From the NCBI RefSeq assembly GCF_017592395.1, contig NZ_JAGFOU010000001.1, forward strand, positions 124,001 to 188,000: a stretch of 64,000 bases of DNA, in the 5' to 3' direction. Positions 5,410 to 60,324 of this stretch are shown piece after piece (the first letter of the stretch is position 1; each line of letters starts with the position of its first letter). The position numbers and the translations under genes were made by a program. This DNA is from Actinomyces bowdenii. Lineage in GTDB: Bacteria; Actinomycetota; Actinomycetes; Actinomycetales; Actinomycetaceae. The notes under the pieces are model-generated. The model worked only from the letters and a program-made list of their open reading frames with translations. It did no database searches and was not told the DNA's origin.

Positions 5410-7026
5410 TCAGCGCAGGGTCAGGAAGCCCTTGCGGGCCAGGTCCCGCACGGCCTCGACCATCTCGGCCCGGACCTGGAGGGCCCCGTCACGGTCGAGG
5501 CCGCCCAGGGAGGCGACGGCCGCGGCGATCTGGGCCACGCTCAGCTCGCCGTCGGCCACGCCCGCGAGCGCGGCGGTCACGGTGCTCGCCCGGACCGCGC
5601 GGCCCAGCGCCCCGCCCTGGCGCAGGATGATGGCGGCGGGCTCGCTGCTGCCCGGCAGGTGGTGGCGCTCCTCGGTGACATCGGCGGACAGGACCGGGGC
5701 GAGGCCGGCCACGGCGTCGTCGTCGAGGCCGGCCAGGCGGTCCTGGAGGGCCAGGACCCGGGCGAGGTGGGGCCCCAGGGGCCCCTGCCCGCTGGTGGCG
5801 ACCTCCTCCAGGACGCGCCAGGGGGCGCGGCCCCCGTCGGCGGGCCGGGACAGGATGAGGTAGCCGAAGCCCACGGCCTCGATGCCCCGCTCCTCGAAGT
5901 CCCCGATCCAGGCCCCCAGGGCGGCCTCGAAGGCGCCGAGGTCGCGCTCGGGGGCCAGGCCGCCGTCGCGCAGCCACATGGTGGCGTACTCCACCGGGTC
6001 CTGGGCCTCCCGCTCCACGACCCAGGCATCGAGATCCCGGGGCAGCCAGGAGGCGACCTCATCGCGCCAGTCGCGCCTGCGCCGGTGCTCCCAGTTGCCC
6101 AGGGCCACCACCGTGCCGCCGGGCTCCAGGTGGTCGCCGATGCGGGCCATGAGGCCGGGCAGGACCGGGCCGCCGGCGTCGCGGTACTCCATGAGCGGCA
6201 GGCCGGCCCGCCGCACCGCCGGTGGGGTCAGGACGAAGGGCGGGTTGGTGGCGATGAGGTCGAAGCGCCGCTGATCCAGGGGATCGAGGAGGGAGCCCTC
6301 CAGCAGCTCGACGCGCTCCTGCTCCCCGGCCAGGGCGGTGTTGAAGGCGGTGAAGGCCAGAGCCCTTTGGGACACGTCGGTGGCGGTGACGCGCCCGGCG
6401 TGGCGCAGCAGGTAGAGGGTCTGGATGCCGCAGCCGCAGCCCAGGTCCAGGGCGGTGCGCACGGGGGTGCGGGGGGTCAGGGCCGCCAGGGTCAGGCCCG
6501 CGCCGCCGATGCCCAGCACATGGTCGGGGGCCAGGGCCCGGCCGGTGACCAGCTCTCCCAGATCGGAGGCCACCCACCACCGCACGGTACCGGCATCATC
6601 GTCGGCCTCGTGGGGGCGCAGGTCCACCTGGGCCCGGACCCGGCCGTCCTGGTCGGGGGGCGAGACCAGGCCGATGGCGGTGGCGCCGCGGGCGCGGGTG
6701 CGGGGCAGGACGGCGTCGAGCTCGGCGGCGGCCACGGGCTGGCCGAGCATGAACAGCGCGGTGAGGATCGCCGTCGGGGAGGGCGCGGCGCCCGCCTGGC
6801 GGTCCTCCTCCAGGGCGGCGCGCACGGCACGCAGGGCGGGCAGGCGCAGCTCGCGGCGCAGGGCCCCCTGGGCGGTGGGCCCCAGGAGGTGGGCGACGGC
6901 GTCCACGCCCCAGCCGGTGGCCTCCAGATCCTTGCGCAGCGCGGCCGCCTGCTCGGCGGTGGCGATGGGCGGCGGGGGTGGAGTGCGCGCGGCGGAGGGG
7001 GCGGCAGGGTCCTCACTCATGCTCAT
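5410..7026 (-). CDS. Class I SAM-dependent methyltransferase (HemK/PrmC-like core)
   Basis: 538 aa from ATG 7026 (a second ATG at 7020 follows; GGGGGT lies upstream). An N-terminal helical domain (~1-170) precedes the Rossmann methyltransferase core: motif I DLGCGCGIQTLYL at about residue 190, and NPPF at ~258-261, the amino-methylating signature seen in glutamine or adenine N-methyltransferases. The C-terminal ~200 residues are another helical/winged domain. This N-domain, NPPF methyltransferase and C-domain layout is recognised in actinobacterial proteins of unknown substrate. The gene starts 25 nt after a very long hairpin that may influence its expression. The methyltransferase activity is secure, the substrate is not. 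Confidence 0.85.
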   Translation of the reverse strand: MSMSEDPAAPSAARTPPPPPIATAEQAAALRKDLEATGWGVDAVAHLLGPTAQGALRRELRLPALRAVRAALEEDRQAGAAPSPTAILTALFMLGQPVAAAELDAVLPRTRARGATAIGLVSPPDQDGRVRAQVDLRPHEADDDAGTVRWWVASDLGELVTGRALAPDHVLGIGGAGLTLAALTPRTPVRTALDLGCGCGIQTLYLLRHAGRVTATDVSQRALAFTAFNTALAGEQERVELLEGSLLDPLDQRRFDLIATNPPFVLTPPAVRRAGLPLMEYRDAGGPVLPGLMARIGDHLEPGGTVVALGNWEHRRRRDWRDEVASWLPRDLDAWVVEREAQDPVEYATMWLRDGGLAPERDLGAFEAALGAWIGDFEERGIEAVGFGYLILSRPADGGRAPWRVLEEVATSGQGPLGPHLARVLALQDRLAGLDDDAVAGLAPVLSADVTEERHHLPGSSEPAAIILRQGGALGRAVRASTVTAALAGVADGELSVAQIAAAVASLGGLDRDGALQVRAEMVEAVRDLARKGFLTLR

Positions 7027-7050
7027 GACGCTACCCCCGCCCCCACAATC

Positions 7051-7118
7051 TTCGACGATTTGCATGAGATCGTACTTCTCCGGGCCTGGAGAAGTACGAT
7101 CTCATGCAAATTGTCGAA
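7051..7118. repeat. 31-bp near-perfect inverted repeat (hairpin) between two co-oriented genes
   Basis: Arms 7051-7081 and 7088-7118 pair over 31 bp with a single G-T wobble around a 6-nt loop (GGGCCT). The inner 23 bp (7059-7081 with 7088-7110) are perfect. The arms are markedly less GC-rich than the surroundings. It sits between the PH-domain gene and the methyltransferase gene, both on the minus strand, 25 nt before the latter's start codon. No U-run follows on either strand, so it is not a standard intrinsic terminator. It may be a mobile palindromic unit or an RNA processing site. Confidence 0.85.
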
Positions 7119-7131
7119 AGTCGGGATTGGG

Positions 7132-7644
7132 TTAACTGCGGGGGTCGGCGTCGATGGCGCCCTGGGGGTCGTTGAACAGGAGGTTGGAGATCTCCACCTG
7201 CACCATCTCCACCTGCGGGACGTCCTCCAGCAGCAGCGGATCATCGGAGGAGGTCTGGAGGGACAGGGTGCCGCAGCCGAAGAGGCGGTCGCCCAGGCTC
7301 TTGTCCTGCTGGACATCCGAGATGCGGCTCAGCGGGAGGTCGTGGCCGCTGCGCGACAGGATCCCGGAGCGGGTGATCACCCGCTTGGTGGTGATGGTGT
7401 AGGTCGTGCTCCACCAGGCCAACCAGGGCAGGATGAAGACCGGGATGCTCACCACGAGCGCCACGATCCAGATCGCCGGCACGCCCCAGGGGCCCCAGTT
7501 GTCGGGGATGAGGAACGAGGCTGCGGCCGCGGCCACCACGATGAGGATCTGCGCGAAGATGCGCCACAGGATGATCTTGATATGGGTGCGGGTATGGCGC
7601 ACCACGATCTCGTCTCGACTGAGCATGTCCCTCGGTGCAGGCAT
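7132..7644 (-). CDS. Bacterial PH-domain membrane protein (DUF304/YdbS-like)
   Basis: 170 aa from ATG 7644. Two hydrophobic helices (IILWRIFAQILIVVAAAAAS and AIWIVALVVSIPVFILPWL) are followed by a bacterial PH-like domain: STTYTITTKRVITRSGILSR, then LPLSRISDVQQ, and a strand FGCGTLSLQTS. This is the standard layout of the YdbS/YdbT family, small membrane-anchored proteins of unclear function. The final strands (VEISNLLFNDPQ) complete the domain. It may share a transcript with the methyltransferase 106 nt downstream, with the long hairpin between them. No partner gene of the YdbT type is adjacent. Confidence 0.85.
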   Translation of the reverse strand: MPAPRDMLSRDEIVVRHTRTHIKIILWRIFAQILIVVAAAAASFLIPDNWGPWGVPAIWIVALVVSIPVFILPWLAWWSTTYTITTKRVITRSGILSRSGHDLPLSRISDVQQDKSLGDRLFGCGTLSLQTSSDDPLLLEDVPQVEMVQVEISNLLFNDPQGAIDADPRS

Positions 7645-10335: not shown

Positions 10336-11440
10336 GGGGGCTCACCACTGCGCCTGCGGGCTCCCCCACCGGGTCGCGGGCGATGGTGGGGCGGTCCTCC
10401 GCCTCCCCGCCGGCACCGCTGGCAGGCCGCCCCGCCCCCGGACTCCTCACACCGGCCTGCGGAGCAGCACCCGGCCCGCCCCCGACGACGCCCTGAGCCG
10501 CGTCCCCGACGGCGCACGGCGGCCCGCCACCCCCCGGCTCGTCCAGCTCCAGTCGGCGGACCACGGCGCCCACGGCGCGGCGCAGCGCTGAGCGGGAGCG
10601 CACCGGGTCCTCCCCGCGGATGATGCGCTGGCGCACGGCGCGGTCGGTGGGGATGGCGGCGAGCACCGGGCAGCCGGCGACGAGCTCCAGGTCGGGCACC
10701 GAGATGTCCTCGCCGACCTGGCGCACCAGGAGGCCCACTCCCGGCCCCTGCCGCGCCCCGCCGATCCCGGTCCCGGCCTGCAATCGGGGCACCAGCGCCT
10801 GGCAGGCCACCGCTGAGCGCAGGTCGAGGCCGCTGAGGAGCAGGACATCCGATCCCGGGGGAGGCGGGCATCCCCGCGGCAGGTCGAGCAGGACGACGTC
10901 GTGCTCGCACAGGAGCGCCTCCAGGACCGCGGGAAGGCAGGACCCGGCCGGCGGCGCGGCACCGTCCACGGGTGCGGGCGGGGCCGGTCCGCCCCGGCCA
11001 TCGCCGGTGAGGAAGGGGATGGCGTGCCAGGCCGGCAGGGCGCCGATGAGCCTTCCCGGGCGGAAGGCCGACTCCTCGTCGGGCAGGTCCGCCCAGCGCA
11101 GCCCCGGCAGCGCCTCATCGCCCAGGAGCAGGCCCAGGCCCCCGGCGGGATCGAGATCCACCATGGCCACGCGCCTGCCCTCACGGCGCAGCGCCCAGGC
11201 CAGGTGGATGAGCAGGGTGCTCACGCCCAGGCCCCCCAGCGCCCCGGTGAGCGCCAGGAGGCGGGTCCCCGCCGGTGCGGGACGCATGGCCGCCGCCCCC
11301 TGCGCCCCCGGCCAGGGGTCTTCGCGGTCCGCGTGCCCGGTCGCGCCGGCACAGCCGGTGAGCGCGCCGGCGGGCCCCCTGACGGCGGGCTCATGACCGC
11401 CGCCGGGGACCTGCGGTGTCGGGGCCTCAGGCATCCACAT
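10325..11440 (-). CDS. tadZ: Tad locus MinD-like protein (TadZ/CpaE, Ssd-like)
   Basis: 371 aa; GAGGAGG stands 5 nt before ATG 11440. The core is a SIMIBI/MinD fold: LALTGALGGLGVSTLLIHLAW, then AMVDLDPAGGLGLLLG, LLDLPRG and a PVLAAIPTDRAVRQRI strand. Family knowledge places such proteins at the head of Tad operons, where they localise the pilus machine at the pole or septum (Ssd, Rv3660c). The deviant Walker A lacks the usual lysines (GGLGVST instead of KGGxGKT), so ATP hydrolysis is doubtful. Residues ~1-50 and the last ~60 are low-complexity. It is the first gene of the leftward tadZ-tadA-tadBC operon. Confidence 0.85.
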   Translation of the reverse strand: MWMPEAPTPQVPGGGHEPAVRGPAGALTGCAGATGHADREDPWPGAQGAAAMRPAPAGTRLLALTGALGGLGVSTLLIHLAWALRREGRRVAMVDLDPAGGLGLLLGDEALPGLRWADLPDEESAFRPGRLIGALPAWHAIPFLTGDGRGGPAPPAPVDGAAPPAGSCLPAVLEALLCEHDVVLLDLPRGCPPPPGSDVLLLSGLDLRSAVACQALVPRLQAGTGIGGARQGPGVGLLVRQVGEDISVPDLELVAGCPVLAAIPTDRAVRQRIIRGEDPVRSRSALRRAVGAVVRRLELDEPGGGGPPCAVGDAAQGVVGGGPGAAPQAGVRSPGAGRPASGAGGEAEDRPTIARDPVGEPAGAVVSPHGR

Positions 11441-48110: not shown

Positions 48111-49322
48111 ATGCCCTCCCCCTCAGAGCCCGCCGCCCCGGCCTCCGCTGCGACCAGCCCAGCCAGCACGGGCAACCGGCCCGCGCCGGCCCCCACGGGC
48201 CCCGGGTACGGCACTCCCCTGCTGACCCACGGCGGCATCGACCTGCGCGGCATCCCCGTGGATGCCTCCGCCCCGGTCATGGTCACCGGGGCCAGCGGCT
48301 ACCTGGGCAGCTGGGTGGTCAGGGGCCTGCTGGAGGTGGGGGTGAGCGTGCATGCGGCGGTGCGCGATCCGCAGGACGCCGCGAGGACGGCCCACCTGCG
48401 GGCCGCCGAGGAGCGCGGCCCGGGGCGCCTGCGGCTCTTCACCGCAGACCTGCTCCAGGAGGGCTCCTACGGCGAGGCGATGGAGGGCTGCGCCGTCGTC
48501 ATCCACACCGCCTCGCCCTTCATCCGCTCCGTGGCCGACCCCCATCGCGACCTCATCGCCCCGGCCCTGGAGGGCACGCGCAATGTGCTGGCGGCCGTGG
48601 ATGGCACGCCCTCGGTGCGGCGGGTGGTGCTCACCAGCTCGATCGCGGCCATGTACGGGGATGCCGCGGACCTGGAGCACTACCCGGGCCGGATCGTGGG
48701 CGAGGGGTCGTGGAACACCACCTCCTCCCCGGAGCACGAGCCCTACGCCTACTCCAAGACGGTGGCGGAGGAGGAGGCCTGGCGGATCGCCGGGGCCCAG
48801 GAGCGCTGGCAGCTGGTGACGATCCACCCCTCCCTCATCCTGGGGCCCGCGCTCAATGCGGCCCCGACCTCGGAGAGCTTCTCCATCGTGGGGCGCATCC
48901 TCGCGGGGGAGCTGCGCGCGGGAGCCCCGGATATCGGCATCAGCGCCGTGGATGTGCGGGAGGTGGCGCAGGCGCATATCGCGGCGGCCTTCCTGCCCCG
49001 GGCCCATGGGAGGTACATCGTCTCGGCGCAGGACACGGACCTCCTGGGGCTGGCCCACTGCCTGCGGCCGCGCTTCGGCCGCGGCCTGCGCCTGCCCCGC
49101 CACTGCGCCCCTCGCGGCCTCGTGCTGGCCCTGGCGCCCCGGCTCGGACTGACCCGCCAGTACGTGCGGCGCAATGTCGGATATGCGCTGAGGGTGGACG
49201 CCTCCCGCAGCCGCCGGGAGCTGGGGATCCGCTACCGCCCGGTGCAGGAGTCGGTGGAGGCGATGGCCGTCCAGATACTGGCCCACGCCTCCCGCCGCCG
49301 GGGTGCGGGCCACCGCTCCTGA
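48111..49322 (+). CDS. NAD(P)-dependent epimerase/reductase (dihydroflavonol-4-reductase-like SDR)
   Basis: 403 aa. After a Pro/Ala-rich start comes VMVTGASGYLGSWVVRGLLEVG, the GxxGxxG Rossmann signature of extended short-chain dehydrogenases. The substrate-binding/catalytic pattern continues with HTASPF, VVLTSSIAAMYGD and YAYSKTVAE, in which Tyr and Lys are the catalytic YxxxK. The following IHPSLILGPALN is typical of cinnamoyl-CoA or dihydroflavonol reductase relatives. A ~50-residue Arg-rich C-terminal region follows. It probably reduces a small carbonyl substrate; the exact one is unknown. Upstream there is a dyad that may bind a repressor. Confidence 0.87.
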   Translation: MPSPSEPAAPASAATSPASTGNRPAPAPTGPGYGTPLLTHGGIDLRGIPVDASAPVMVTGASGYLGSWVVRGLLEVGVSVHAAVRDPQDAARTAHLRAAEERGPGRLRLFTADLLQEGSYGEAMEGCAVVIHTASPFIRSVADPHRDLIAPALEGTRNVLAAVDGTPSVRRVVLTSSIAAMYGDAADLEHYPGRIVGEGSWNTTSSPEHEPYAYSKTVAEEEAWRIAGAQERWQLVTIHPSLILGPALNAAPTSESFSIVGRILAGELRAGAPDIGISAVDVREVAQAHIAAAFLPRAHGRYIVSAQDTDLLGLAHCLRPRFGRGLRLPRHCAPRGLVLALAPRLGLTRQYVRRNVGYALRVDASRSRRELGIRYRPVQESVEAMAVQILAHASRRRGAGHRS

Positions 49323-49576: not shown

Positions 49577-50182
49577 TCATCCCCCGGGGCCCGGGAGCGC
49601 CGGCTCGGCGTCGAGTGCCGAGCGCGGTGGCCCCATGGGCGCGTAATGCCCCTCCTGGAGGTAGAACAGCGGGGTGCGCAGCGCGGCGTAGCGCTCGGAC
49701 AGGCCGCCGGCCGTGCAGCGCTCGTCGACGGCGACCCGTGTGACTGTCCCCAGGATGAGGATCTCCCCGGCCTTGATGTCCAGGATGCGGTCCAGTCGGC
49801 ACTCCAAGTGGGCGGGGCACTCGCGCAGGTGGGGCACGCCGACCGTCACGCCCTCCTCCACAGTCAAGCCGGAGGAGCGCAGCCTCTCACCGTGCCCCTG
49901 CTCCGGCATCCTCCAGATTGCCGGCGCCATCTCCTCTCCCGGGACGTTGACGACGAACTCCCCGCGGGCCTCGATGTTGCGGCAGGTCGCGTGCTCGCGG
50001 TTGCAGCCGAAGCCGAAGGTGGGGCCGGAGAAGGATGCCATGACCCCGCAGCTCTTGGGGGCGATCCCCACCCGCCCTTGATCATCCAGGGTGGTGATCA
50101 GCAGGACCTGGCTGGGCAAGGGCGAGGGGGACCAGTGGAGCTTGTGCAGGGGCATGTCCACGAAGGCGCTCATGCCAGGCAT
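49577..50182 (-). CDS. Flavin reductase-like FMN-binding split-barrel protein
   Basis: 201 aa from ATG 50182 (ATG 50173 also possible). The split-barrel signature of the flavin-reductase/DIM6-NTAB family is visible: PLPSQVLLITTLDDQGRVGIAPKSCGVMASFSGPTFGFGCN, then EFVVNVPGEEMAPAIW and HLECRLDRILDIKAGEILILGTVTRVAVDE. Members bind FMN and reduce or transfer flavins, often supplying FMNH2 to a partner oxygenase, but no partner is visible here. It lies between the two direct repeats at 49474 and 50215 and is oriented against the neighbouring gene, consistent with having been inserted. Confidence 0.85.
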   Translation of the reverse strand: MPGMSAFVDMPLHKLHWSPSPLPSQVLLITTLDDQGRVGIAPKSCGVMASFSGPTFGFGCNREHATCRNIEARGEFVVNVPGEEMAPAIWRMPEQGHGERLRSSGLTVEEGVTVGVPHLRECPAHLECRLDRILDIKAGEILILGTVTRVAVDERCTAGGLSERYAALRTPLFYLQEGHYAPMGPPRSALDAEPALPGPGG

Positions 50183-51699: not shown

Positions 51700-53247
51700 T
51701 CAGACGGGCCGTCGGGTTCGGGGCCCCACCCGGGACCGCTCGTGCCACAGCTTGTTGGTGTCATTGATGGACAGCTCGGTCTCGGTGAGCTGGACATCCA
51801 CCGGGATGCCCGGGCGCCCGCCGACCTTGACCAGGAACTTCCCACGCCCCGGGGGCTCGGCCTCCCGCCCGGTCGAGGGATCCCAGGCGGGAGGGTCCTG
51901 CCACCCGATGAGCAGCTCCTGCTCGGCCCCCGAGAAGGGCACGGCCGCGGTGAGCTGCGGCATCTCCGCCGAGGGCAGGCCGCCGCAGATGACCATGCCG
52001 GAGCGCTCCACGAAGCCCCGGGCCTTCATCCGGTCCTCCTGGCCGGCCAGGGCCAGCAGGTCGCTCATCGTGTGCGAGATCATCGCCATGCCCACGCCCC
52101 GCTGCCGGTTGAGGCGCGTCAGGGCATCCACCCGATCGACCATCCCCCGCCCGGCGCGCAGCGCCCGCCACAGCTCGTCGAGGATGACGAAGTAGTGGCG
52201 CCGGGGCTCCAGCCCCGCATCGGCCAGGGCATGGGCGACATTGACGGTGCTGAAGCCGGCCGACCAGCACGCCAGCAGCGTGGCGGCCTGAAGGTCCATC
52301 TCGGAGTCGTCGATCGCGGAGACGTCGTAGGCCACCGGGGCGTCGCGGCGCATCGGATTGGTGGTCTGGCGCGAGAACGCCTCCCCCAGCCTCCCGCCGC
52401 CCACCAGGCCGATGAGCGAGGCCTCCAGGCCCTCGGTGATCTCCCTGTAGCGGGCCTCGTCGCCGCGGTCCAGGGCGACCGCGCGCACCTGAGGCGGCCC
52501 CTCCTGGATGACGCGAAGAAGATCGCCCAGGACGGGAACGCCCTCGTGGTGCTCATCGAGATGCTTCAGGGCCCGGTCCAGGATCGTCTCCTCACGATCC
52601 GTGGGCGGGGCCTGGCGCAGGATCGTCAGCAGCGCGGAGACCATCGTGTGCCGGCGCCCATGGGCATCGGCCAGGACCTGCGCGGCCTCCTTGCCCAGCC
52701 CCGCCTCCCGCAGCCTGGCCGCTGCCCGCACGGCCTCGCCGGGGTCGAGGATGTTGAGGTAGCCGCGCCCGCGGCCCAGGGTGATGACCTGCCCGCCCAG
52801 GGCCTCGATGAGATCGACGTAATCGGGCTTGAGGTCGCCCAGGACGATGGGCATGACGCCGTAGCCGGCCAGCCCCGTGGCCATGCGGCGAACGATCGTC
52901 GACTTGCCCAGGCCCGGCTTGCCCAGCACGAAGGCGCTGGGGTTGGAGATGAGCTTGGCCCGCTGGAACCAGGAGATCGGGTCGCAGCACAGGGTGGCGC
53001 CGGTGTGGGCGTGCCGGCCCAGGGGCACGCCCACCATCGGGGTGCCCGTCCCGACGGCGAAGGGCCACAGGCCGCAGACCTGCACGGTGGTGCCGCGCCA
53101 CTCATCGGCCTGCTGCACGTAGGCCGAGGCTCCCCGGCCGCGCCCCAGCCACCCCCGCATCGGCGGGCGCAGGGGGCGCGCCTCGCGCTGCTGGGCCCGC
53201 TCCCTCCCGTCCTGTCGGTGCTTCCTCCGATCCGCCCGCCTGCTCAC
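51700..53247 (-). CDS. VirB4/TraC-like conjugation ATPase
   Basis: 515 aa from GTG 53247, overlapping the previous stop as GTGA. Walker A is GKPGLGKST (109-117), with AFVL before it; Walker B is HYFVILDELWRALR near 350, followed by RQRGVGMAMISHTMSDLLAL, the sensor region of VirB4-type ATPases. The chain has only the C-terminal ATPase half of VirB4; the SCO6880-family product may replace the N-terminal part, as in other actinobacterial conjugative elements. It energises substrate passage through a type IV channel. Last gene of a six-gene leftward operon. Confidence 0.87.
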   Translation of the reverse strand: MSRRADRRKHRQDGRERAQQREARPLRPPMRGWLGRGRGASAYVQQADEWRGTTVQVCGLWPFAVGTGTPMVGVPLGRHAHTGATLCCDPISWFQRAKLISNPSAFVLGKPGLGKSTIVRRMATGLAGYGVMPIVLGDLKPDYVDLIEALGGQVITLGRGRGYLNILDPGEAVRAAARLREAGLGKEAAQVLADAHGRRHTMVSALLTILRQAPPTDREETILDRALKHLDEHHEGVPVLGDLLRVIQEGPPQVRAVALDRGDEARYREITEGLEASLIGLVGGGRLGEAFSRQTTNPMRRDAPVAYDVSAIDDSEMDLQAATLLACWSAGFSTVNVAHALADAGLEPRRHYFVILDELWRALRAGRGMVDRVDALTRLNRQRGVGMAMISHTMSDLLALAGQEDRMKARGFVERSGMVICGGLPSAEMPQLTAAVPFSGAEQELLIGWQDPPAWDPSTGREAEPPGRGKFLVKVGGRPGIPVDVQLTETELSINDTNKLWHERSRVGPRTRRPV

Positions 53248-54752
53248 AGCTTCTCCCTCAGCTCCGTGGGCACCCTGATGTGCTTGGGCAGCACCAGCCC
53301 CAGGGGCAGCGCCGCTGCGAAGGCCGAGTCCTGGGAGCCGTAGACGGGCCGCAGCCGCAGCCGCGCGGTGGCCGCGAGATTGTCGATCGCCGCGCGGGCA
53401 TCGGCCTGCCTGGACAGGTCCGCGACGGTGGCGGTCACCAGCATGCCGAACTGGACCAGGCCCGCGCCGGAGGCCTCCTCCTGCGCGGTCGCCGCCGCGG
53501 CCCGGACCGCGAGGCTGTCGCGCGCAGCGGGCTTGCTCGTCGAGGTCACCCGGAACTCGGCCGCCCGCAGATCGGCCTCCACGATCGCTGCGGCCCTGGC
53601 GGCGTCGATCGGCCGGTACAGCAGGGTCACGCGCTTGCGGGTGATATCGCGGTGCGGGGCCAGCAGGCGCGCCAGCACCCCGGACTGCACGGTGCCGCGC
53701 GGGGCCTGGGTCATCGCCCAGGTGCACGAGTAGGCCGAGTCGTGGCGGTAGCCGCCCCATGAGGCCTGCGCCGCGCTGGGCCCCACCTCCGGCCAGGTCA
53801 GCTCCACCCTCTGGCCCGCGGCGCGGGCCTCGTCGATGAGCACCGCCGCGGCCGGGTCGTAGGCGATCCGCACCGCCTCGCACAGCTCCTGCGCCGTCAG
53901 CGGGTGGGCGGCGCCCGCGCCCGTGGCCTGGAGGCCGGCGGTCAGGCCGGGCAGCCGCGCCGCCAACTCGCGGCCCATCTCCTCGGCCTGGCGCCTCTTG
54001 CCGCCCGGCCGCTGCGCGGCGCTGAAGGTGATGGCCACGAAGGCCTTCACCGTGGAGGATCCCTCCGGGTAGCGGCCCACCACCTCCCTGAGCATCTCGC
54101 GGGCGAAGGCCGGCGCATCGGGGTCGATGTTGATCTCCACCTCGCGGCGCAGGCGCGTGCCCGAGTCCGGCGCCGTCTCGATCGTCACCGAGGCGGCCTC
54201 GATCCCGGGCTCATCCCCGAGATTGGCCAGCCAGTGGCCCCAGTCGGCCACCCACACATCGACCTGCTCGCAGTCCACCAGGGCGGCGCCGTCGGGCTCG
54301 GTGCCGATGACCACCGAGTAGGAGCCGGTGGCGGGCGTGTGCAGCAGCGCGAAGGGCCGCCCGTAGGAGTCCGTGTGCTCGCTCAGCCGTGTGGCCGCCG
54401 CCAGGCCGGGGAGCTGGTGGGTGCCCCACAGGGCGCGCCCCAGGGGCCCGGAGCGGTAGAGGTTCGAGCCGCGCGAGCGCGCCGCCCACCACCCCAGGCG
54501 CGCTCCCCCACGGGTGAGCAGGTTGCGGCCGTGGGCGTCCCTGGTGAGGACCGCCAGCATGACGGCGCCGAGCACTGCCGCCACGATGACGGCCCGCAGG
54601 AGGTCGGCCACCATCACCGTGATGACCACGACGATGAGTCCTGCCAGCAGCAGGCCCGTGCCCACCGACCCCAGCCCGAGGATCCCCGGCGACGTCGGCC
54701 GGCGCCAGTTCCCATAGGTCCGCGGAGTCCTGCTCGTGTCAACGGCTGCCAC
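53244..54752 (-). CDS. SCO6880-family conjugation protein
   Basis: 502 aa from GTG 54752, beginning 14 bp inside the end of the preceding gene. Two membrane helices lie near the N-terminus (GTGLLLAGLIVVVITVMVADLL and VIVAAVLGAVMLAV). The rest is a soluble domain: SYSVVIGTEPDGAALVDCEQVDVWVADWGHWLANLGDEP, TIETAPDSGTRLRREV and SWGGYRHDSAYSCTWAMTQAPRG, the last being characteristic of the SCO6880 group found beside VirB4-like ATPases in actinobacterial integrative elements. It is thought to be the membrane partner of the VirB4 ATPase. Substrate unknown. Confidence 0.85.
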   Translation of the reverse strand: MAAVDTSRTPRTYGNWRRPTSPGILGLGSVGTGLLLAGLIVVVITVMVADLLRAVIVAAVLGAVMLAVLTRDAHGRNLLTRGGARLGWWAARSRGSNLYRSGPLGRALWGTHQLPGLAAATRLSEHTDSYGRPFALLHTPATGSYSVVIGTEPDGAALVDCEQVDVWVADWGHWLANLGDEPGIEAASVTIETAPDSGTRLRREVEINIDPDAPAFAREMLREVVGRYPEGSSTVKAFVAITFSAAQRPGGKRRQAEEMGRELAARLPGLTAGLQATGAGAAHPLTAQELCEAVRIAYDPAAAVLIDEARAAGQRVELTWPEVGPSAAQASWGGYRHDSAYSCTWAMTQAPRGTVQSGVLARLLAPHRDITRKRVTLLYRPIDAARAAAIVEADLRAAEFRVTSTSKPAARDSLAVRAAAATAQEEASGAGLVQFGMLVTATVADLSRQADARAAIDNLAATARLRLRPVYGSQDSAFAAALPLGLVLPKHIRVPTELREKL

Positions 54753-56358
54753 TGGGACCGCCCTCCCCCTCACTGCTCGACTGCCGGCCCCGGCTCCTGA
54801 CCGCTGCCGGGAGCACGTGGCGGGCCTTCCTGTCCGCCTCCTGCGCGGGGCCGGCGGCTGAGCCGGCAGCCGCGCCGCCACCGGGGCCACCCGTCCGGGC
54901 GCTGCCGGCCGATGCCGCCACCGTTCCCCTGCCTGTGCTCCGCCCCGCTCCACCACCGGTGCCGCCCGGCCCGGCTCCGCCCGCCCGGCCCGCCTGCCGG
55001 GCGCCGGGGGACGGCGCCGGAGCCGGGGTCCCCCCGCCGCTCCGGCCGCTGCCCGAGGGGGCCCACGAGCCCGACCGCCCCTGCGGGCCGGAGAGTCCCG
55101 GGCCTCCCGCGCCGACCGAGCCGCTGCCCGATGCCAGGCGCCCGATCGTGGCCGCACCCGTGGGAAGGCCTGCCAGGGCGCTCACGGCGGCACCACTGCC
55201 CCCGTGGGCCGCCACCCCCACCACGGGTGCCACGAAGCTCATCAAGGCCGGCATCGCCAGCAGGGCGAGGATCATGAGCATGAGGCCGGTGAGAACCGTG
55301 AGCAGCCCGCTGCCATCATCGGAGAAGGCCTCCGTGCCGGAGATCTGGAAGGCGGCCGCGTACACGATGGCCGCAGCCGGCTTGTAGGCGATGAGCGCCA
55401 CCAGCCAGGACACGCATCTCCTGAACCATGCCTGACCCGTCTGCGTATTGGTGAGGGCGGCTGACAGGGGCAGAGTGCCGGCGAGGATGACCAGCATCCC
55501 TCCCCGGGCCACCATGAGCATGACCTGCGCGATCGCGGCCAGGACCGCGATGAGGCCCAGGATGATGATGAGCAGGTAGCCCAGCCCGCCCGCCTCATCG
55601 CTGGTCGTCAGGGCGAGGAGCGTCAGCATGCTCCTGGCGAAGCAGGTCGAGTCCGAGGCGATATCGCAGCCCAGGGAGCCGTTGAGGAGCCAGACCGAGA
55701 AGGAGTCCGCCGCCGCCACCAGGAGCCCGGCGATCGTCACCCCGGACCCGGCGACGACCACCAGGGTGAGCAGGCCCTTGACGGTCTGGCGCCCGGGCTC
55801 CGCCCGCTGCTCCCAGGCCATGCGCGCCCCGCCGATGATCACCGACAGGACGGCCGCCGCTCCCGTGTACCACCACAGCCCGGACTGCAGGAGCAGCACG
55901 GCGCCCCCGGCCCGGCTCGGCCCGGCCGGCATGAGCGCGGAGACGATCGCGCTCGACGCCGAGATGAGGACCACCGCGGCGAGCACGAGACCGACCCTGC
56001 CGATGGCCAGGACGCCATCGCCCGATCTCATCCGCACCGCCATCATGCCTCCCAGCGCGAGCAGGGACAGGACCGCCAGAGCCAGGCTCACCCACATGAC
56101 GTGGCCCAGGACGGTCGCGATCCCCTCCGCGTCCGGGGCGGAGGATCCGGCCTGGAGCGCCGAGCCGCCGCCCGCACCGGTCAGGCCGGGTGTGCCGATA
56201 TGCACCCAGACCGCCCCCAAGGACGCCACGCTCTTGCCGTAGGCCTCCATGACGGCATTGGCCAGGTTCCTGATCGGGTCCCCGAACGCCTCATCAGCCG
56301 CCTGGGCCTGGGCGCAGCGCTCGGGAGAGGCCGCCCAGGAGATCGGATCGCATGCCAT
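54739..56358 (-). CDS. Polytopic T4SS channel protein (TrbL/VirB6-like)
   Basis: 539 aa. About eight hydrophobic helices, with CFARSMLTLLALTTSDEAGGLGYLLIIILGLIAVLAAIAQVMLMVARGGMLVILAG as the central family-like stretch and a cysteine-bearing loop before it. The final ~130 residues are a Gly/Ser/Pro-rich disordered tail. This layout is that of TrbL/VirB6 inner-membrane channel proteins. It lies between the VirB8-like gene (3-nt gap) and the SCO6880 gene, and the tail overlaps the latter start. It should form the inner-membrane pore. Confidence 0.83.
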   Translation of the reverse strand: MACDPISWAASPERCAQAQAADEAFGDPIRNLANAVMEAYGKSVASLGAVWVHIGTPGLTGAGGGSALQAGSSAPDAEGIATVLGHVMWVSLALAVLSLLALGGMMAVRMRSGDGVLAIGRVGLVLAAVVLISASSAIVSALMPAGPSRAGGAVLLLQSGLWWYTGAAAVLSVIIGGARMAWEQRAEPGRQTVKGLLTLVVVAGSGVTIAGLLVAAADSFSVWLLNGSLGCDIASDSTCFARSMLTLLALTTSDEAGGLGYLLIIILGLIAVLAAIAQVMLMVARGGMLVILAGTLPLSAALTNTQTGQAWFRRCVSWLVALIAYKPAAAIVYAAAFQISGTEAFSDDGSGLLTVLTGLMLMILALLAMPALMSFVAPVVGVAAHGGSGAAVSALAGLPTGAATIGRLASGSGSVGAGGPGLSGPQGRSGSWAPSGSGRSGGGTPAPAPSPGARQAGRAGGAGPGGTGGGAGRSTGRGTVAASAGSARTGGPGGGAAAGSAAGPAQEADRKARHVLPAAVRSRGRQSSSEGEGGPSGSR

Positions 56359-56361
56359 GGC

Positions 56362-57132
56362 TCAGGACCCCCAGCTCACGTAGCCGGCGGCATCAGGGAT
56401 CGTCACGACGTCGAGCGGCGCCGGTGAGGCGGAGCTGAGCCTCCAATCCCCATCGGACCACTGGAGGTGGTAGACCATCGAGAGGGTGATCTCACGCCCC
56501 TGCGTCGATGCCCGCACCGCCAGGTCCACACTCGCCCGGTCGCCCGTGTAGGACAGGAGGCGGAAGCCGATGATCCTCAGCCTGGCCGAGCCCTCGGGCG
56601 CGGCTCCCGAGGCTCGGGCCGGCGCCTCGCCGAGGAGCTGCTCGCGGTACGGGCCGGGGGCGAGGAAGTACTCGATCCAGGTGCGGGCCAGCGCCTCATC
56701 CGTTCCTGTGGCCAAGGCGCCCGCCGCGGCCAGGAGGGCGCCCTCGGCAGAGCGCTGGAAGCAGTAGCGGTACCCCTCCGCACTGGTCGCAGCAGGCCCA
56801 TAGACCTGAGAGACGGGATAGGCGGTGGTGCCCTGGTAGTCCCACCGGTCCACCTGCGGGGCGGCATCCAGACGGGCCGGGCCCAGGGCCTCCCCGCCAA
56901 GGCCGCACACACTCGCCCCCGCCCCCTCGGGGCCGGGAGTGGAGGCCGTAGCGGCGGGGACCGGATCCCCCGTGGAGGCGCCAGCCGGTGGAGCGGCCTC
57001 CTCCCGGGCCGTCCGGAGGATCCCCAGGACGGCGCCCAGGACGAGGACCAGGGCCACGACGAGGGCCGAGGCGATGAACCCGGGACGGGTGACGGGGCCG
57101 GCCGGAGCGCCGCCCGCATCCGCGGTGGTCAT
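56362..57132 (-). CDS. Bitopic T4SS assembly protein, VirB8/TcpC-like (NTF2 fold)
   Basis: 256 aa. After a short cytoplasmic start, PGFIASALVVALVLVLGAVLGIL is one membrane helix. A Pro/Ala-rich linker follows, then SAEGYRYCFQRSAEGALLAAAGALATGTDEALARTWIEYFLAPGPYREQLL and a beta-rich end RLRIIGFRLLSYTGDRASVDLAV...MVYHLQWSDGDWRLS, ending VSWGS. Helix-then-sheet of this form is an NTF2-like domain, the fold of VirB8 and TcpC. It joins the inner-membrane channel to the outer assembly. The assignment is by fold pattern and position. Confidence 0.65.
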   Translation of the reverse strand: MTTADAGGAPAGPVTRPGFIASALVVALVLVLGAVLGILRTAREEAAPPAGASTGDPVPAATASTPGPEGAGASVCGLGGEALGPARLDAAPQVDRWDYQGTTAYPVSQVYGPAATSAEGYRYCFQRSAEGALLAAAGALATGTDEALARTWIEYFLAPGPYREQLLGEAPARASGAAPEGSARLRIIGFRLLSYTGDRASVDLAVRASTQGREITLSMVYHLQWSDGDWRLSSASPAPLDVVTIPDAAGYVSWGS

Positions 57133-57148
57133 GAGGGGGCTCCTCCTC

Positions 57149-57427
57149 TCAGCCGGCGAGGAACCCCACCAGGGCGGCCGCGGCCGAGATGACGACGACC
57201 CCGCCAAGAGCCATGGCGATCTTGCCGACGTGCTCACCGCCCTCACCGCGGCGCGACTGGACCGCCATGAGGGCTCCTGCGGCGAACAGGCCCAGGACGC
57301 ACACGGCCAGCGCCACCCACTTCGCCCAGCCCATGACGGCGGTGAAGCCCTCGGTCCCCGGGGGCTGGACGGGGTCCGGGTCGGGAATGGCCGCAACGGC
57401 CAGCAGCAGGGAATCAACGGTGCTCAC
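57149..57427 (-). CDS. Small two-helix membrane protein, VirB2/TrbC-like
   Basis: 92 aa from GTG 57427, chosen for AGGAG 8 nt upstream. A ~40-residue N-terminus (PDPDPVQPPGTEGFTAVMG) precedes two membrane helices, KWVALAVCVLGLFAAGALMAV and IAMALGGVVVISAAAALVGFL, separated by a short charged loop SRRGEGGEHVGK. Size and layout match VirB2/TrbC pilin-like subunits of type IV secretion systems. The first ~15 residues could be a signal. It overlaps the end of the DUF6668 gene. Confidence 0.7.
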   Translation of the reverse strand: MSTVDSLLLAVAAIPDPDPVQPPGTEGFTAVMGWAKWVALAVCVLGLFAAGALMAVQSRRGEGGEHVGKIAMALGGVVVISAAAALVGFLAG

Positions 57428-58040
57428 GGGCGCACTCCTCGGTGTGGTGGTGGGGGGTGGGTGTCCTATCGGACACCAGACTGGAGAGGTCATCGATCAT
57501 GCGGCGGGCCTGACGCGGGAGCCGGTCATGGGCGAGGCCCTGGCCCAGGCGCCATGCCTCCACCCACGGCACCTCCCATACCCGCGGGGCGCCGCCGCCG
57601 ACGATGCGCCCCAGGTCCCTCAGCGCCCTGGGGCGGCGCCCGGGGGCATCCGCCAGGAGGATCAGGCCCAGCAGGCGGGGATCGCCGACCGCCCCGCTGG
57701 CCCACTGCGTCAGCACCGCCTGAGCCCGCGTGAGGCCCTCGAAGCCGGTGCGGGCCGCCAGGACCACGGGCGCCGAGGAGTCCGCGGGCCAGGAGTGCCC
57801 GGCGGCCATCCAGCCCTCCTGGAGCGAGGACAGGAGCGACTCCCCCGAGCCCCCGTGCGCGCCCAGCACCCACAGGACCGGCCGCTCGGGCCTGGTGGCG
57901 ACGGGCAGGGCGCCCCTCGCCGGCTGGTCGATGCCGGGCTGAGGAGCGCCGGGCCCCGTCAGGGGGCACAGGGGAGGCTGCGAGGGAGGCGGGGTCGGGA
58001 GGGAGGCAGGCCGCCGGGTCACCCAGGGATTGGTGGTCAC
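57414..58040 (-). CDS. DUF6668-type P-loop-like protein, first gene of the T4SS operon
   Basis: 208 aa from GTG 58040, selected because AAGGAG lies 9 nt upstream; ATG 58058 is an alternative without a ribosome site. The core reads RPVLWVLGAHGGSGESLLSSLQEGW, a Walker A-like turn in which the Lys is Glu, then VVLAARTGFEGLTRAQAVLTQWASG, LLGLILLADAPGRRPRALRDLGRIV and VWEVPWVEAWRLG. This matches a family seen at the head of actinobacterial conjugation clusters. It resembles a degenerate MinD/ParA ATPase and may place the apparatus in the cell. Function inferred from position. Confidence 0.72.
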   Translation of the reverse strand: MTTNPWVTRRPASLPTPPPSQPPLCPLTGPGAPQPGIDQPARGALPVATRPERPVLWVLGAHGGSGESLLSSLQEGWMAAGHSWPADSSAPVVLAARTGFEGLTRAQAVLTQWASGAVGDPRLLGLILLADAPGRRPRALRDLGRIVGGGAPRVWEVPWVEAWRLGQGLAHDRLPRQARRMIDDLSSLVSDRTPTPHHHTEECAREHR

Positions 58041-58058
58041 GGGCACGGGCTCCTTCAT

Positions 58059-58297
58059 GGATGGTGGGCTCGTGAGGCTCTGGCCCCTGAAGTTTACTAC
58101 AATGTGACACTGAGAACGACATATGAACATGGTTGAGCATCTTCACCACTTGGAATATTTATATACGTTTTTTGTGCATGTAGAGTGCTGGGAGAGCATG
58201 CTGCCCCATGGTTGCCGACCTTCCCCGCGCACTCATCGCCGAGCGCTGTCGGGCCTGACCGGCGCCGCATCAACCCCCGGGGCGGGAAGGAGCCCCC
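58059..58297. other. AT-rich divergent control region of the T4SS-like cluster
   Basis: About 240 bp between the leftward operon and the rightward lipoprotein gene. The stretch 58090-58180 is strikingly AT-rich for this genome, with several TATA-like and T-rich runs. Besides the candidate promoter at 58133-58161 there may be one for the leftward operon, but no clear pair could be chosen. Confidence 0.55.
58133..58161 (+). promoter_or_regulatory. Candidate promoter for the lipoprotein-hydrolase genes
   Basis: TTGAGC (58133-58138) and TATTTA (58156-58161) are separated by 17 bp in the AT-rich stretch, about 135 bp before the lipoprotein start. Confidence 0.45.
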
Positions 58298-58855
58298 TTG
58301 CACCGCACCATCCCGGCACTCCTCCTGCTCGCCCTGGTCGCCACCGGCTGCTCGCCAGGAGACGGCCACGGCGAGGCGCCCTCCTCCCCAGCAGCGCCCC
58401 CCGTCGCGGCCGCCACCCCTGTCCAGCTGCTGACCGAGGACCCCATGGATGACCTCGGCGCCATCACCCCGAGCTGGTCGGGGACCTACCTCCCACCCAC
58501 CTGGGACCAGGCGGCCGAGGACGCCGCCGTCCAGCGCGCCTCGCAGACCATGACCGCCTACCTCGCGGGAACCGACCAGGAGACCTGGTGGCGGGAGCTC
58601 CTGCCCCACCTGACCCCGCAGGCCCGGGACGCCTACCGCCACACCGACGTCACCCGTGTGCCCCCGGCCGCCGTGGATGGGGCCCGGGCCTCCTTGATCT
58701 CACCCACCGACGAGGCCCACCTGCTCACCGCACTGGTCCAGGTCCCCACGGACAAGGGCGTCTTCGGCGTGGTCCTGACCCGTCACAGCGGCAACGACTG
58801 GCTGACCCAGCGCATCATCCTGCCGGGGGACGCCGTCCCGGAGGGAGTCCTATGA
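58298..58855 (+). CDS. Lipoprotein of the T4SS-like cluster
   Basis: 185 aa from TTG 58298, with GGAAGGAG 5 nt upstream. The signal ends in the lipobox LVATGC, so the chain is anchored to the membrane outer face through Cys18. A Pro/Ala-rich linker is followed by a domain with SWSGTYLPPTWDQAAEDAAVQRASQTMTAYLAG, WWRELLPHLTPQARDAYRHTDVTRVPPAAV and a beta-rich end LTALVQVPTDKGVFGVVLTRHSGNDWLTQRIILPG. I recognise no named family; the NTF2-like look resembles other conjugation accessory lipoproteins. It is coupled to the next gene by ATGA. Confidence 0.82.
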   Translation: MHRTIPALLLLALVATGCSPGDGHGEAPSSPAAPPVAAATPVQLLTEDPMDDLGAITPSWSGTYLPPTWDQAAEDAAVQRASQTMTAYLAGTDQETWWRELLPHLTPQARDAYRHTDVTRVPPAAVDGARASLISPTDEAHLLTALVQVPTDKGVFGVVLTRHSGNDWLTQRIILPGDAVPEGVL

Positions 58856-60324
58856 GGCCGGGGAGGCTGGTGGTCGGCCTCGCGCTGGTGCCGCTCCTGG
58901 CGCTCGTCCCCGCCCTCGCCCTCCTGCTGCTCCTGGGGGGCCAGGAGGATGACTGCACCGCGGCGGGCGAGGGCAGAGCGGTTCTCGTCGATGAGCGGGC
59001 CGCCGCAGGGATCTCCGTGCCCGGCTGGGATGCCTCCCAGCTGGCCCATGCGGCCACCATCATGAGGGCGGCGGCCGATAGGGGCCTGACCCGCCGGGAC
59101 CAGACCATCGCGGTCATGACCGCCATCGGGGAGTCCGGCCTGCGGAACCTGGATCACGGGGACACCGCGGGCCCGGACAGCCGCGGCCTGTTCCAGCAGC
59201 GGGCGAGCTGGGGCAGCCTGGAGCAGCGCATGGACCCCTACCAGTCCGCCTCGCTCTTCCTCCAGGAGCTGGAGAGGATCACGCAGCGCCACACCATGGA
59301 GCCGACCCTCGTCGCGCACCGGATACAGGCCAATGCCGACCCCTACCACTACGAGCCCTCCTGGCCCGCCGCCGAGGCCATCGTCGCGGCCCTCGACGGC
59401 GGAGCCGTCACCGCCCCCACCGCCTCGGCCTCCGAGACGACCGGCGCCGCCGACCTCGCCCGGGCCCAGGAGGGGGTCCCGTACCTCTGGGGAGGGGCGA
59501 GCCCGAGCGGATTCGACTGCTCCGGACTGGTCCACTACGTCTTCTCCCAGCTCGGGATCGAGCTCCAGCGCACCTCCGCCCAGCAGGGGGCGCAGGGCCG
59601 GGAGATCTACACCGGGCCGGGCACGGGCGCCCCCTGGGACGAGATGAGCCCCGGGGATGTCATCTTCTTCCCCGCCGGGACCGACTCCTATGACCACATC
59701 GGCATCTACTCGGGCCACCGGAGGATGATCCATGCGCCCACCACGGGCGAGGCGGTCACGGAGGTCGACCTGGACTCCTCCTGGCAGGAGCGGTCCTGGA
59801 GCGTGCGCCGGATGACCCAGGCCGCCCAGCCGCCCTCCAGCGCTGCTGCGCCGACGGGGCGATGCGCCTCCGGGGCGGCTGGCGGCGCCCCGGCCGCCGT
59901 CGGCCCGGGCGGGTGGGCCGCGCCGGCCGCGGGCCCCCGCACCAGCCCCTTCGGCATGCGGGTCAACCCGGTCACCGGCGTCAACCGGCTCCACGCCGGC
60001 ACGGACCTGGCCGGCGGTGGATGCGGCGGCCCCATCCATGCCGCGGCGGGGGGCACGGTGACCTTCGCCGGCCTGTACGAGGACGGGACCGGCGCCATCG
60101 AGATCGACCACGGCGGGGGCGTGACCACCGCCTACCTTCACATGGAGGCCTCAGGCATCACGGCGCGGGTCGGGCAGGGCGTCACGGCAGGGCAGCACAT
60201 CGCCGCAGTGGGCTCGACGGGGAACTCCACCGGCTGCCACCTCCACTTCGAGGTCCATCTCAATGGGCAGCCCACCGACCCCGAGCCCTTCATGAGCCAC
60301 CGGGGCGTGACCCTCGGCCAGTGA
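58852..60324 (+). CDS. Three-domain cell-wall hydrolase (lysozyme-like + NlpC/P60 + M23)
   Basis: 490 aa. An N-terminal membrane helix (ALVPLLALVPALALLLLLGG) is followed by three enzyme domains. Residues ~55-150 look like a lysozyme/SLT-type fold (TIMRAAADRGL..QTIAVMTAIGESGLRN, GLFQQR). Residues ~195-315 are NlpC/P60: YLWGGASPSGFDCSGLVHYVF with Cys223, and YDHIGIYSG with His282. Residues ~355-490 are M23/LytM: HAGTD with zinc ligand His381, and CHLHFE with His463 and His465. It acts as the VirB1-like protein that opens peptidoglycan for the secretion channel. Start ATG overlaps the lipoprotein stop. Confidence 0.9.
   Translation: MRPGRLVVGLALVPLLALVPALALLLLLGGQEDDCTAAGEGRAVLVDERAAAGISVPGWDASQLAHAATIMRAAADRGLTRRDQTIAVMTAIGESGLRNLDHGDTAGPDSRGLFQQRASWGSLEQRMDPYQSASLFLQELERITQRHTMEPTLVAHRIQANADPYHYEPSWPAAEAIVAALDGGAVTAPTASASETTGAADLARAQEGVPYLWGGASPSGFDCSGLVHYVFSQLGIELQRTSAQQGAQGREIYTGPGTGAPWDEMSPGDVIFFPAGTDSYDHIGIYSGHRRMIHAPTTGEAVTEVDLDSSWQERSWSVRRMTQAAQPPSSAAAPTGRCASGAAGGAPAAVGPGGWAAPAAGPRTSPFGMRVNPVTGVNRLHAGTDLAGGGCGGPIHAAAGGTVTFAGLYEDGTGAIEIDHGGGVTTAYLHMEASGITARVGQGVTAGQHIAAVGSTGNSTGCHLHFEVHLNGQPTDPEPFMSHRGVTLGQ

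Follow-up and report, generated by a model that had tools for sequence, protein, structure and literature searches.

The window analysed here is a stretch of 64,000 nucleotides (G000:C1:124001-188000) from the draft genome of Actinomyces bowdenii (G000; 3.10 Mb, 54 contigs). Positions 51700-60324 are filled by eight intact genes, six leftward and two rightward, whose predicted products resemble the channel of a type IV secretion system (T4SS) and include neither the coupling protein VirD4 nor a relaxase. The genes lie where the original prediction had placed them, the leftward six facing a lipoprotein and a wall hydrolase, and family scans confirm SCO6880, DUF6668, NLPC_P60 and M23.

Parts of the cluster and the predicted VirB4 motor

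By position, the six minus-strand genes begin with the C-terminal ATPase half of VirB4 (51700..53247, 515 residues), which carries the Walker A motif GKPGLGKST and the Walker B motif VILDE and scores low with VirB4 models (38.5 bits, against 325, for the CD1110 family; E 4e-10). The adjoining gene encodes a SCO6880 family protein (53244..54752, 502 residues) with an N-terminal hydrophobic stretch and a VirB4 N-terminal domain; its NF042935 score of 580 bits, against a cut-off of 60, places it in this curated family. The polytopic TrbL/VirB6-like membrane protein (54739..56358, 539 residues) has no Pfam or NCBIfam match, and is followed by a VirB8-like protein (56362..57132, 256 residues) with one transmembrane helix and an NTF2-like domain. 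The VirB2-like pilin (57149..57493, 114 residues) matches PF18895 (T4SS_pilin) weakly (E 0.005; 17.4 bits, below the 26.6-bit cut-off), and the DUF6668 protein (57414..58130, 238 residues as called) matches PF20373 above the cut-off (E 9e-8). The true start of the latter may lie later than called, as suggested by plasmid homologues that align from about residue 33. Neighbouring genes overlap by four bases (ATPase/SCO6880), 14 bases (SCO6880/TrbL) and 80 bases (pilin/DUF6668).

On the plus strand, a predicted lipoprotein (58298..58855, 185 residues, TTG start) overlaps by four bases a wall hydrolase (58852..60324, 490 residues). The lipobox VATGC of the former was read by eye and is missed by a strict pattern; the protein is a distant homologue (35%) of a gene product of the plasmid pYJND-1. 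The hydrolase combines an NlpC/P60 domain (PF00877, E 2e-26) with an M23 domain (PF01551, E 4e-24), both of its ends match a plasmid M23 protein, and its role may be VirB1-like. Between the two gene groups lies a divergent intergenic region of 167 bases (58131..58297), partly conserved in the nearest relative. It had been described as an AT-rich divergent promoter, which is true of a 65-base part at 40% G+C and not of the gap as a whole (61% G+C); a promoter scan of the region found no sigma-70 consensus site.

The label VirB4-like, which the original prediction gave to one gene, fits the ATPase half, and the other half of VirB4 appears to be the SCO6880 protein. A structural model of SCO6880 was predicted from 40 sequences (mean pLDDT, the predicted local distance difference test, 74.6), and all 14 structure matches at E<=0.001 are entries containing R388 VirB4 (best 3.9e-10). 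Residues 103-489 of the model fit residues 15-379 of 8rtd_P (Z 21.5, root-mean-square deviation (rmsd) 4.2, 326 aligned), and residues 101-492 fit residues 15-381 of 7o42_E, the TrwK/VirB4 chain (Z 20.8, rmsd 4.0, 329 aligned). In VirB4, the ATPase part comes after the N-terminal part. Because the SCO6880 model fits this N-terminal part and the ATPase gene comes next, VirB4 is predicted to consist of two proteins in this system. A role in place of VirB3 is conceivable for the hydrophobic stretch near the SCO6880 N terminus (residues 22-74). A sequence search for solved relatives returned none for SCO6880 or the ATPase, and weak transmembrane-helix matches for the VirB8-like protein.

A second structural resemblance of the SCO6880 model, over residues 28-491, is to 6umm_A, a chain of an ESX type VII secretion system (Z 15.9, rmsd 8.1, 272 aligned, 16% identity); 6sgz_D and 7b9f_E follow at Z about 12, compared with a flavoenzyme background near Z 9. 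We take all three chains to be EccE. The EccE model TIGR03923 (T7SS_EccE) weakly matches four of 40 SCO6880 family members (best E 5e-4). Kinship between the SCO6880 half and a membrane part of type VII secretion is thus possible; no statement of it was found among the literature matches listed.

The VirB8-like model (mean pLDDT 85) shows an NTF2-like fold, which brings TraM of pIP501 and Rickettsia VirB8 to Z 8.4-8.7, the same band as unrelated NTF2 proteins; Foldseek gave no match at E 0.001. Similarity to the pilin is seen within the VirB6-like protein, at residues 75-142 (44%; 63 bits, with a maximum of 29 in 100 shuffles). The N-terminal part of the VirB6-like protein thus contains a VirB2-like, pilin-like hairpin, which is present in its plasmid relatives too.

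Kinship with MOBP plasmids and the search for a coupling protein

The SCO6880 protein matches 446 of 72,556 plasmid records; the best five are 84-86% identical and most fall below 60%. Plasmid ATPases are 89-90% identical to the ATPase of the cluster. Two plasmid homologues of the TrbL/VirB6-like protein are 64-68% identical over about residues 8-431, two plasmid proteins are 59-85% identical to the pilin, and homologues of the DUF6668 protein reach 43-48%. A phage origin was discarded, none of 50,697 phage records having a SCO6880 match.

The closest counterparts are found on MOBP plasmids of Micrococcales. All genes of the cluster recur, identically ordered, in pYJND-1 and pRE117-1, with a lipoprotein (in pRE117-1 found by profile) and an M23 hydrolase facing DUF6668, the pilin, the VirB8-like and TrbL-like proteins, SCO6880 and the ATPase; the stretch read of pS16-2 starts at SCO6880. 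In all three, the ATPase is directly followed by a VirD4-type protein (in pYJND-1 with matches to PF12696 and PF02534), a DUF4913 protein and then a MOBP relaxase and MobC. The channel genes and the divergent layout are therefore alike, whereas the window is without VirD4, DUF4913, relaxase and MobC. It also lacks the helix-turn-helix regulator gene that occupies the divergent gap in two related plasmids, and the AAA and FHA genes bordering the module there. Conversely, the NlpC/P60 domain of the window hydrolase has no counterpart that could be found in the pYJND-1 protein. Judged by gene order and sequence identity, the cluster is the mating-channel half of a known conjugation module of Micrococcales MOBP plasmids.

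The remaining half was searched for around the cluster. Neither in the whole 64-kb window nor in the 60 kb beyond it on either side did tblastn find a plasmid-type VirD4, relaxase, MobC or recombinase; the relaxase searches, here and in the genomes below, did not extend to the TrwC type. Pfam detected no integrase among 20 flanking proteins, the outer flanks not being scanned for integrases, and the 18 direct-repeat families listed include none with a copy at each cluster end, close to which there is a weak inverted pair (25 nt, 76%, 51617/60501). Within these limits, none of the relaxase, coupling protein, integrase or att-like repeats missed in the original prediction came to light, and the combination of relaxase, coupling protein and integrase just outside the cluster, which would have marked a standard integrative conjugative element (ICE), was not found. 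An ICE with ends further out was provisionally set aside, given no plasmid-type transfer genes to 60 kb, no pairing direct repeats among those listed and no integrase among the 20 neighbours, the outer parts being without a Pfam scan. A short ParA-like match to the plasmid gene set lies apart, at window positions 11147-11263.

The flanks had been described as ordinary chromosomal genes, which holds for DUF4921 on the left (Pfam E 6e-203; 117 bases from ATPase gene end to DUF4921 end) and for the reductase with GST domains on the right; the TPR match of an 827-residue neighbour stays below Pfam cut-offs.

Across the genomes, the plasmid VirD4 protein finds nothing in A. bowdenii, in its nearest relative, another species (G003; one contig, 3.17 Mb), or in G029, and matches G009 and G014. 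PF12696 (TraG-D_C) likewise has no match in the first three genomes and matches in G009, G014 and G031. Matches to the FtsK-type PF01580 in A. bowdenii and G003 fall into FtsK-sized frames (963-966 residues), long frames (1349-1620 residues), which by frame size may be EccC-like proteins of type VII secretion, and one 33-position match in G003. Relaxases of PF03432 are absent from G003, G009 and G014. A. bowdenii has one (53 bits), on contig 25 (G000:C25:29750-30076, L262); within 20 kb around it, tblastn found no match to 34 window and plasmid genes. This relaxase is perhaps a mobilisable remnant.

A. bowdenii and G003 thus have T4SS channel genes and no coupling protein found in the genome, which is what characterises a VirD4-less T4SS. 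Measured against a full conjugative T4SS, the cluster has an ATPase with intact Walker motifs, and neither a coupling protein nor a plasmid-type relaxase was found with it.

Shared site, selection and recurrence of VirD4-less clusters

DUF4921 and the GST reductase were found in 49/49 genomes of the genus, on one contig in 48 of them. The gap between the two measures at most 500 bases in 19 genomes and more than 2 kb in 22, so that the site varies within the genus. Fifteen of the 49 genomes have SCO6880 relatives, which lie between DUF4921 and the GST reductase only in A. bowdenii and G003. When the site was read in 19 other genomes, the cluster was present in G003 and not in 18. G003 carries the same eight genes in the same order at the same site, with no VirD4 or plasmid-type relaxase found in its cluster. 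Compared at this insertion point, the cluster is whole in the two species, and no SCO6880 relative lies there in the other 47 genomes.

In G003, 4.3 kb separate the ATPase from DUF4921 and hold two similar lipoprotein-like genes as well as genes for 697-residue and 128-residue proteins. These island genes (L083 9948-14210) are related to those at the same site in G034 (L087) and partly in G029; the lipoprotein-like gene is present in four copies in G034. Three of the G003 island proteins (697, 253 and 128 residues) have no Pfam match, and the G003 and G034 genes look like type VII substrates with lipoprotein partners. At other loci of the genus, fuller modules occur, with VirD4 after the ATPase in G009, G034, G014 and G031; the contig of G041 ends inside the ATPase. 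No MOBP-type relaxase was found in the stretches read of these five genomes.

Selection was estimated between A. bowdenii and G003 from the ratio of nonsynonymous to synonymous divergence (dN/dS; Nei-Gojobori, 200 bootstraps). All eight genes have open frames in both species and ratios of 0.11-0.45, each with an upper bootstrap bound below 0.7, and purifying selection acts on all of them. The energy genes (ATPase 0.12, SCO6880 0.11) evolve like three of the four flanking genes measured (DUF4921 0.13, GST reductase 0.09, TPR gene 0.12). Looser values were obtained for TrbL (0.31), VirB8 (0.33), the pilin (0.29), DUF6668 (0.26) and the hydrolase (0.27), and the loosest for the lipoprotein (0.45, upper bound 0.66), which is matched by the fourth flanking gene, an epimerase-like gene at 48111-49322 (0.46). 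A flavin reductase at 49577-50182 has no partner in the G003 stretch and consequently no value. That TrbL, VirB8 and the lipoprotein evolve more loosely is in keeping with contact with the cell exterior. Columns with a conservation of 97% or more across 69 reference sequences are retained in the window in 113/113 cases for SCO6880 and in 137/138 for the ATPase.

The family was surveyed further in 68 fetched genome loci, which were scanned with profiles together with others, and 96 loci were taken for a VirD4 count. Three had no ATPase match and 11, including the short stretch of the window (L082), extended less than 2 kb beyond the ATPase, leaving 82. Of these, 76 have VirD4 in the 4 kb that follow the ATPase; the 76 are not all independent, since some records are the same or nearly so (L111/L128, L131/L234 and several near-identical plasmids). 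The six loci without VirD4 are G003, L170, L179, L186, L183 and L241. L183 was dropped, having merely 2.1 kb after VirB4, and so was L241, whose genome carries a second SCO6880 gene and, next to it, a TraG-D_C match that falls 276 bases beyond the stretch. In VirD4's place beside its ATPase, L241 (G137) encodes a 512-residue membrane protein (5675-7213) whose C-terminal part appears by eye to be ricin-type lectin-like.

The remaining cases beyond Actinomyces are Geodermatophilus ruber (L179) and G. sabuli (L186), with flanking genes in common, and a metagenome-assembled genome (MAG) of a termite-gut actinobacterium (L170). The two Geodermatophilus genomes have no TraG-D_C match, and profiles detected no VirB8-like or DUF6668 gene in their clusters. 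No close further relatives of the Geodermatophilus clusters emerged from the family of G094, in which four of five genomes match, or from the order of G237, in which 113 of 345 do (best 62% identity). In a midpoint-rooted FastTree phylogeny of 86 loci (966 columns), the window with G003, the Geodermatophilus pair and L170 form three groups, all of them branching from within clusters that have VirD4. Both pairs have a local support of 1.0, the nodes that next enclose the groups reach 0.89-0.98, and weak nodes (0.0, 0.27) adjoin two of them. VirD4-less clusters of this family hence occur in three separate places of the tree. Measured from outgroups, the window/G003 and Geodermatophilus lines, the two compared, show no acceleration.

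Sixteen more distant chromosomal loci comprise 11 with a VirD4 match in the stretch (in L272 just 4.7 kb away), one with neither a VirD4 nor an ATPase match (L279) and four (L269, L270, L271, L273), all of one family, with M23, TrbL, SCO6880 and ATPase matches and no VirD4 seen in the stretch. These four are probably from Streptomyces and probable relatives, not aligned to it, of the cmd operon of that genus, which is probably a fourth and older VirD4-less case.

Probable domestication, its alternatives and its meaning

The original prediction had left open whether this is a domesticated secretion machine or what remains, as a core, of an element reduced by losses. Both fit at once: the cluster is the channel half of a MOBP-plasmid module, and purifying selection has preserved it whole at a single site in two species. 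A domesticated, coupling-protein-independent T4SS with a present role at the surface or in export is, in our view, the probable explanation, with real room for doubt; any one function is held with less confidence. Domestication rests on gene content, plasmid kinship, the missing VirD4, the shared site, selection and repeated occurrence, from which we infer the assembly of the machine and what it does. The common ancestor of A. bowdenii and its sister species G003 would have gained a MOBP-type plasmid channel module between DUF4921 and the GST reductase, of which the VirD4-relaxase half was lost or never arrived. The remaining genes could form an envelope part with a wall-opening hydrolase, VirB8-like and VirB6-like membrane parts, a VirB2-like pilin and a two-protein VirB4 motor. 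The kept parts are those that would build and power an envelope channel or fibre, and the absent part is the one that would select and load substrates. Without VirD4, DNA or cytoplasmic substrates should not load in the usual way. The product would most likely be a VirB4-driven surface structure, such as a pilus-like fibre for attachment or contact, or a device for the export of Sec-delivered proteins.

Several observations weigh against domestication. The cluster occupies the site in just two of 49 Actinomyces genomes, one per species, and the dN/dS values average over any time before VirD4 was lost. Synonymous divergence is higher in the cluster (dS 0.22-0.42) than in the flanks (0.12-0.20), which makes recombination or replacement by a related copy possible; the excess could stem from recombination or from a different codon constraint. 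The absence of a relaxase is not special, since VirD4-bearing G009 and G014 also have no PF03432 match and a plasmid-type relaxase was seen in just 30 of the 76 VirD4-bearing loci (stretches examined). The termite-gut MAG has one weak TraG-D_C match on another contig. Mobilisation in trans is possible, because the A. bowdenii genome is a draft and has the relaxase on contig 25. In the cmd publication, neither sporulation nor pigment was altered in SCO6878 and SCO6881 null mutants (PMC2782261).

The low number of genomes and the excess of synonymous change would also suit a recent remnant of an integrated plasmid, intact through the shortness of time, functionless and decaying, as would the dN/dS of the lipoprotein, VirB8 and TrbL, looser than that of the DUF4921, GST and TPR flanks. 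Such a remnant is nevertheless unlikely, given eight open frames in both species with upper bootstrap bounds below 0.7, energy genes as constrained as most flanking genes, conserved columns kept in full or nearly so and a partly conserved divergent region. The contig-25 relaxase would, in turn, be expected if the cluster were a helper channel for a mobilisable element elsewhere that supplies its own coupling protein and relaxase. None of the 34 window and plasmid genes has a match in the 20 kb around that relaxase, G003 has no PF03432 match (TrwC-type relaxases aside) and neither genome has a TraG-D_C match, which makes a helper role quite improbable.

A further possibility is a part for the complex in hyphal growth, septation or chromosome segregation, like that reported for the cmdABCDEF operon of Streptomyces coelicolor (SCO4126-4131). 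Three genes of this operon resemble transfer genes of plasmid SLP2 (22-33%), and cmdB, cmdC and cmdD resemble SCO6878, SCO6880 and SCO6881 (PMC2782261). Normal sporulation and chromosome segregation depend on the operon, though not on cmdA alone, and cmd null mutants leave transfer of an SLP2-derived plasmid unchanged (PMC2782261). It is likewise chromosomal, with a SCO6880-type protein, a VirB4-like ATPase and membrane proteins; unlike the window cluster, it is described there from several Streptomyces and tied to sporulation and antibiotic timing, the likeness being drawn from the publication and the SCO6880 family name without alignment. The four probably Streptomyces clusters without VirD4 in the stretch also speak for such a role. 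It is very doubtful here, as the SCO6878 and SCO6881 mutants lack the cmd phenotype and the window protein is 86% identical to plasmid proteins, whereas the four clusters match the Geodermatophilus SCO6880 protein at just 28-31%. With this difference in identity, the two domestications look independent. Actinomyces are not known to sporulate, which also counts against such a role.

Domestication as a coupling-protein-independent T4SS has precedents outside this family. Section 20 of a review names as VirD4-less T4SSs Bordetella Ptl, Brucella VirB, Helicobacter ComB and Bartonella Trw, for which two-step export, DNA uptake or pili have been proposed as functions (PMC12857230). These are also channels without coupling protein, in non-conjugative use, but Gram-negative, whereas the window system belongs to a Gram-positive genus and has a split VirB4. 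Patescibacteria, another lineage, have monoderm-type T4SSs with VirB2-like pilins, mostly without relaxase and thought to be co-opted, but that study reports VirD4 homologues in most genomes, usually away from virB4 (PMC12102498). A survey of T4SS-type ICEs in Actinobacteria required a coupling protein, VirB4 and a relaxase (PMC3218068). Among the open-licence literature matches listed, no report of VirD4-less actinobacterial clusters was found.

The split VirB4, whose N-terminal half is filed as 'SCO6880 family', may escape standard VirB4 models and may explain under-calling of such systems. MOB-suite typed 178 of the 446 SCO6880-matching plasmid records as non-mobilizable and 121 as mobilizable; pYJND-1, with its channel, VirD4 and relaxase genes, was typed only mobilizable, and the related pRE117-1 conjugative. 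As a tentative generalisation, which we hold to be possible and short of probable, Gram-positive bacteria may repeatedly make coupling-protein-free surface machines out of conjugation channels, the plasmid-borne split-VirB4 system having been domesticated at least four times within Actinomycetes (Actinomyces, Geodermatophilus, the termite-gut lineage and Streptomyces cmd). There would then be a general monoderm class of VirD4-less systems that moves pilins or Sec-delivered proteins and not DNA, with SCO6880 maybe a relative of a membrane part of type VII secretion. Since the VirD4-less T4SSs listed in the review are all Gram-negative (PMC12857230), the actinobacterial case, found in three lineages, would provide a natural test of how a channel and its VirB4 motor behave once DNA loading is removed.

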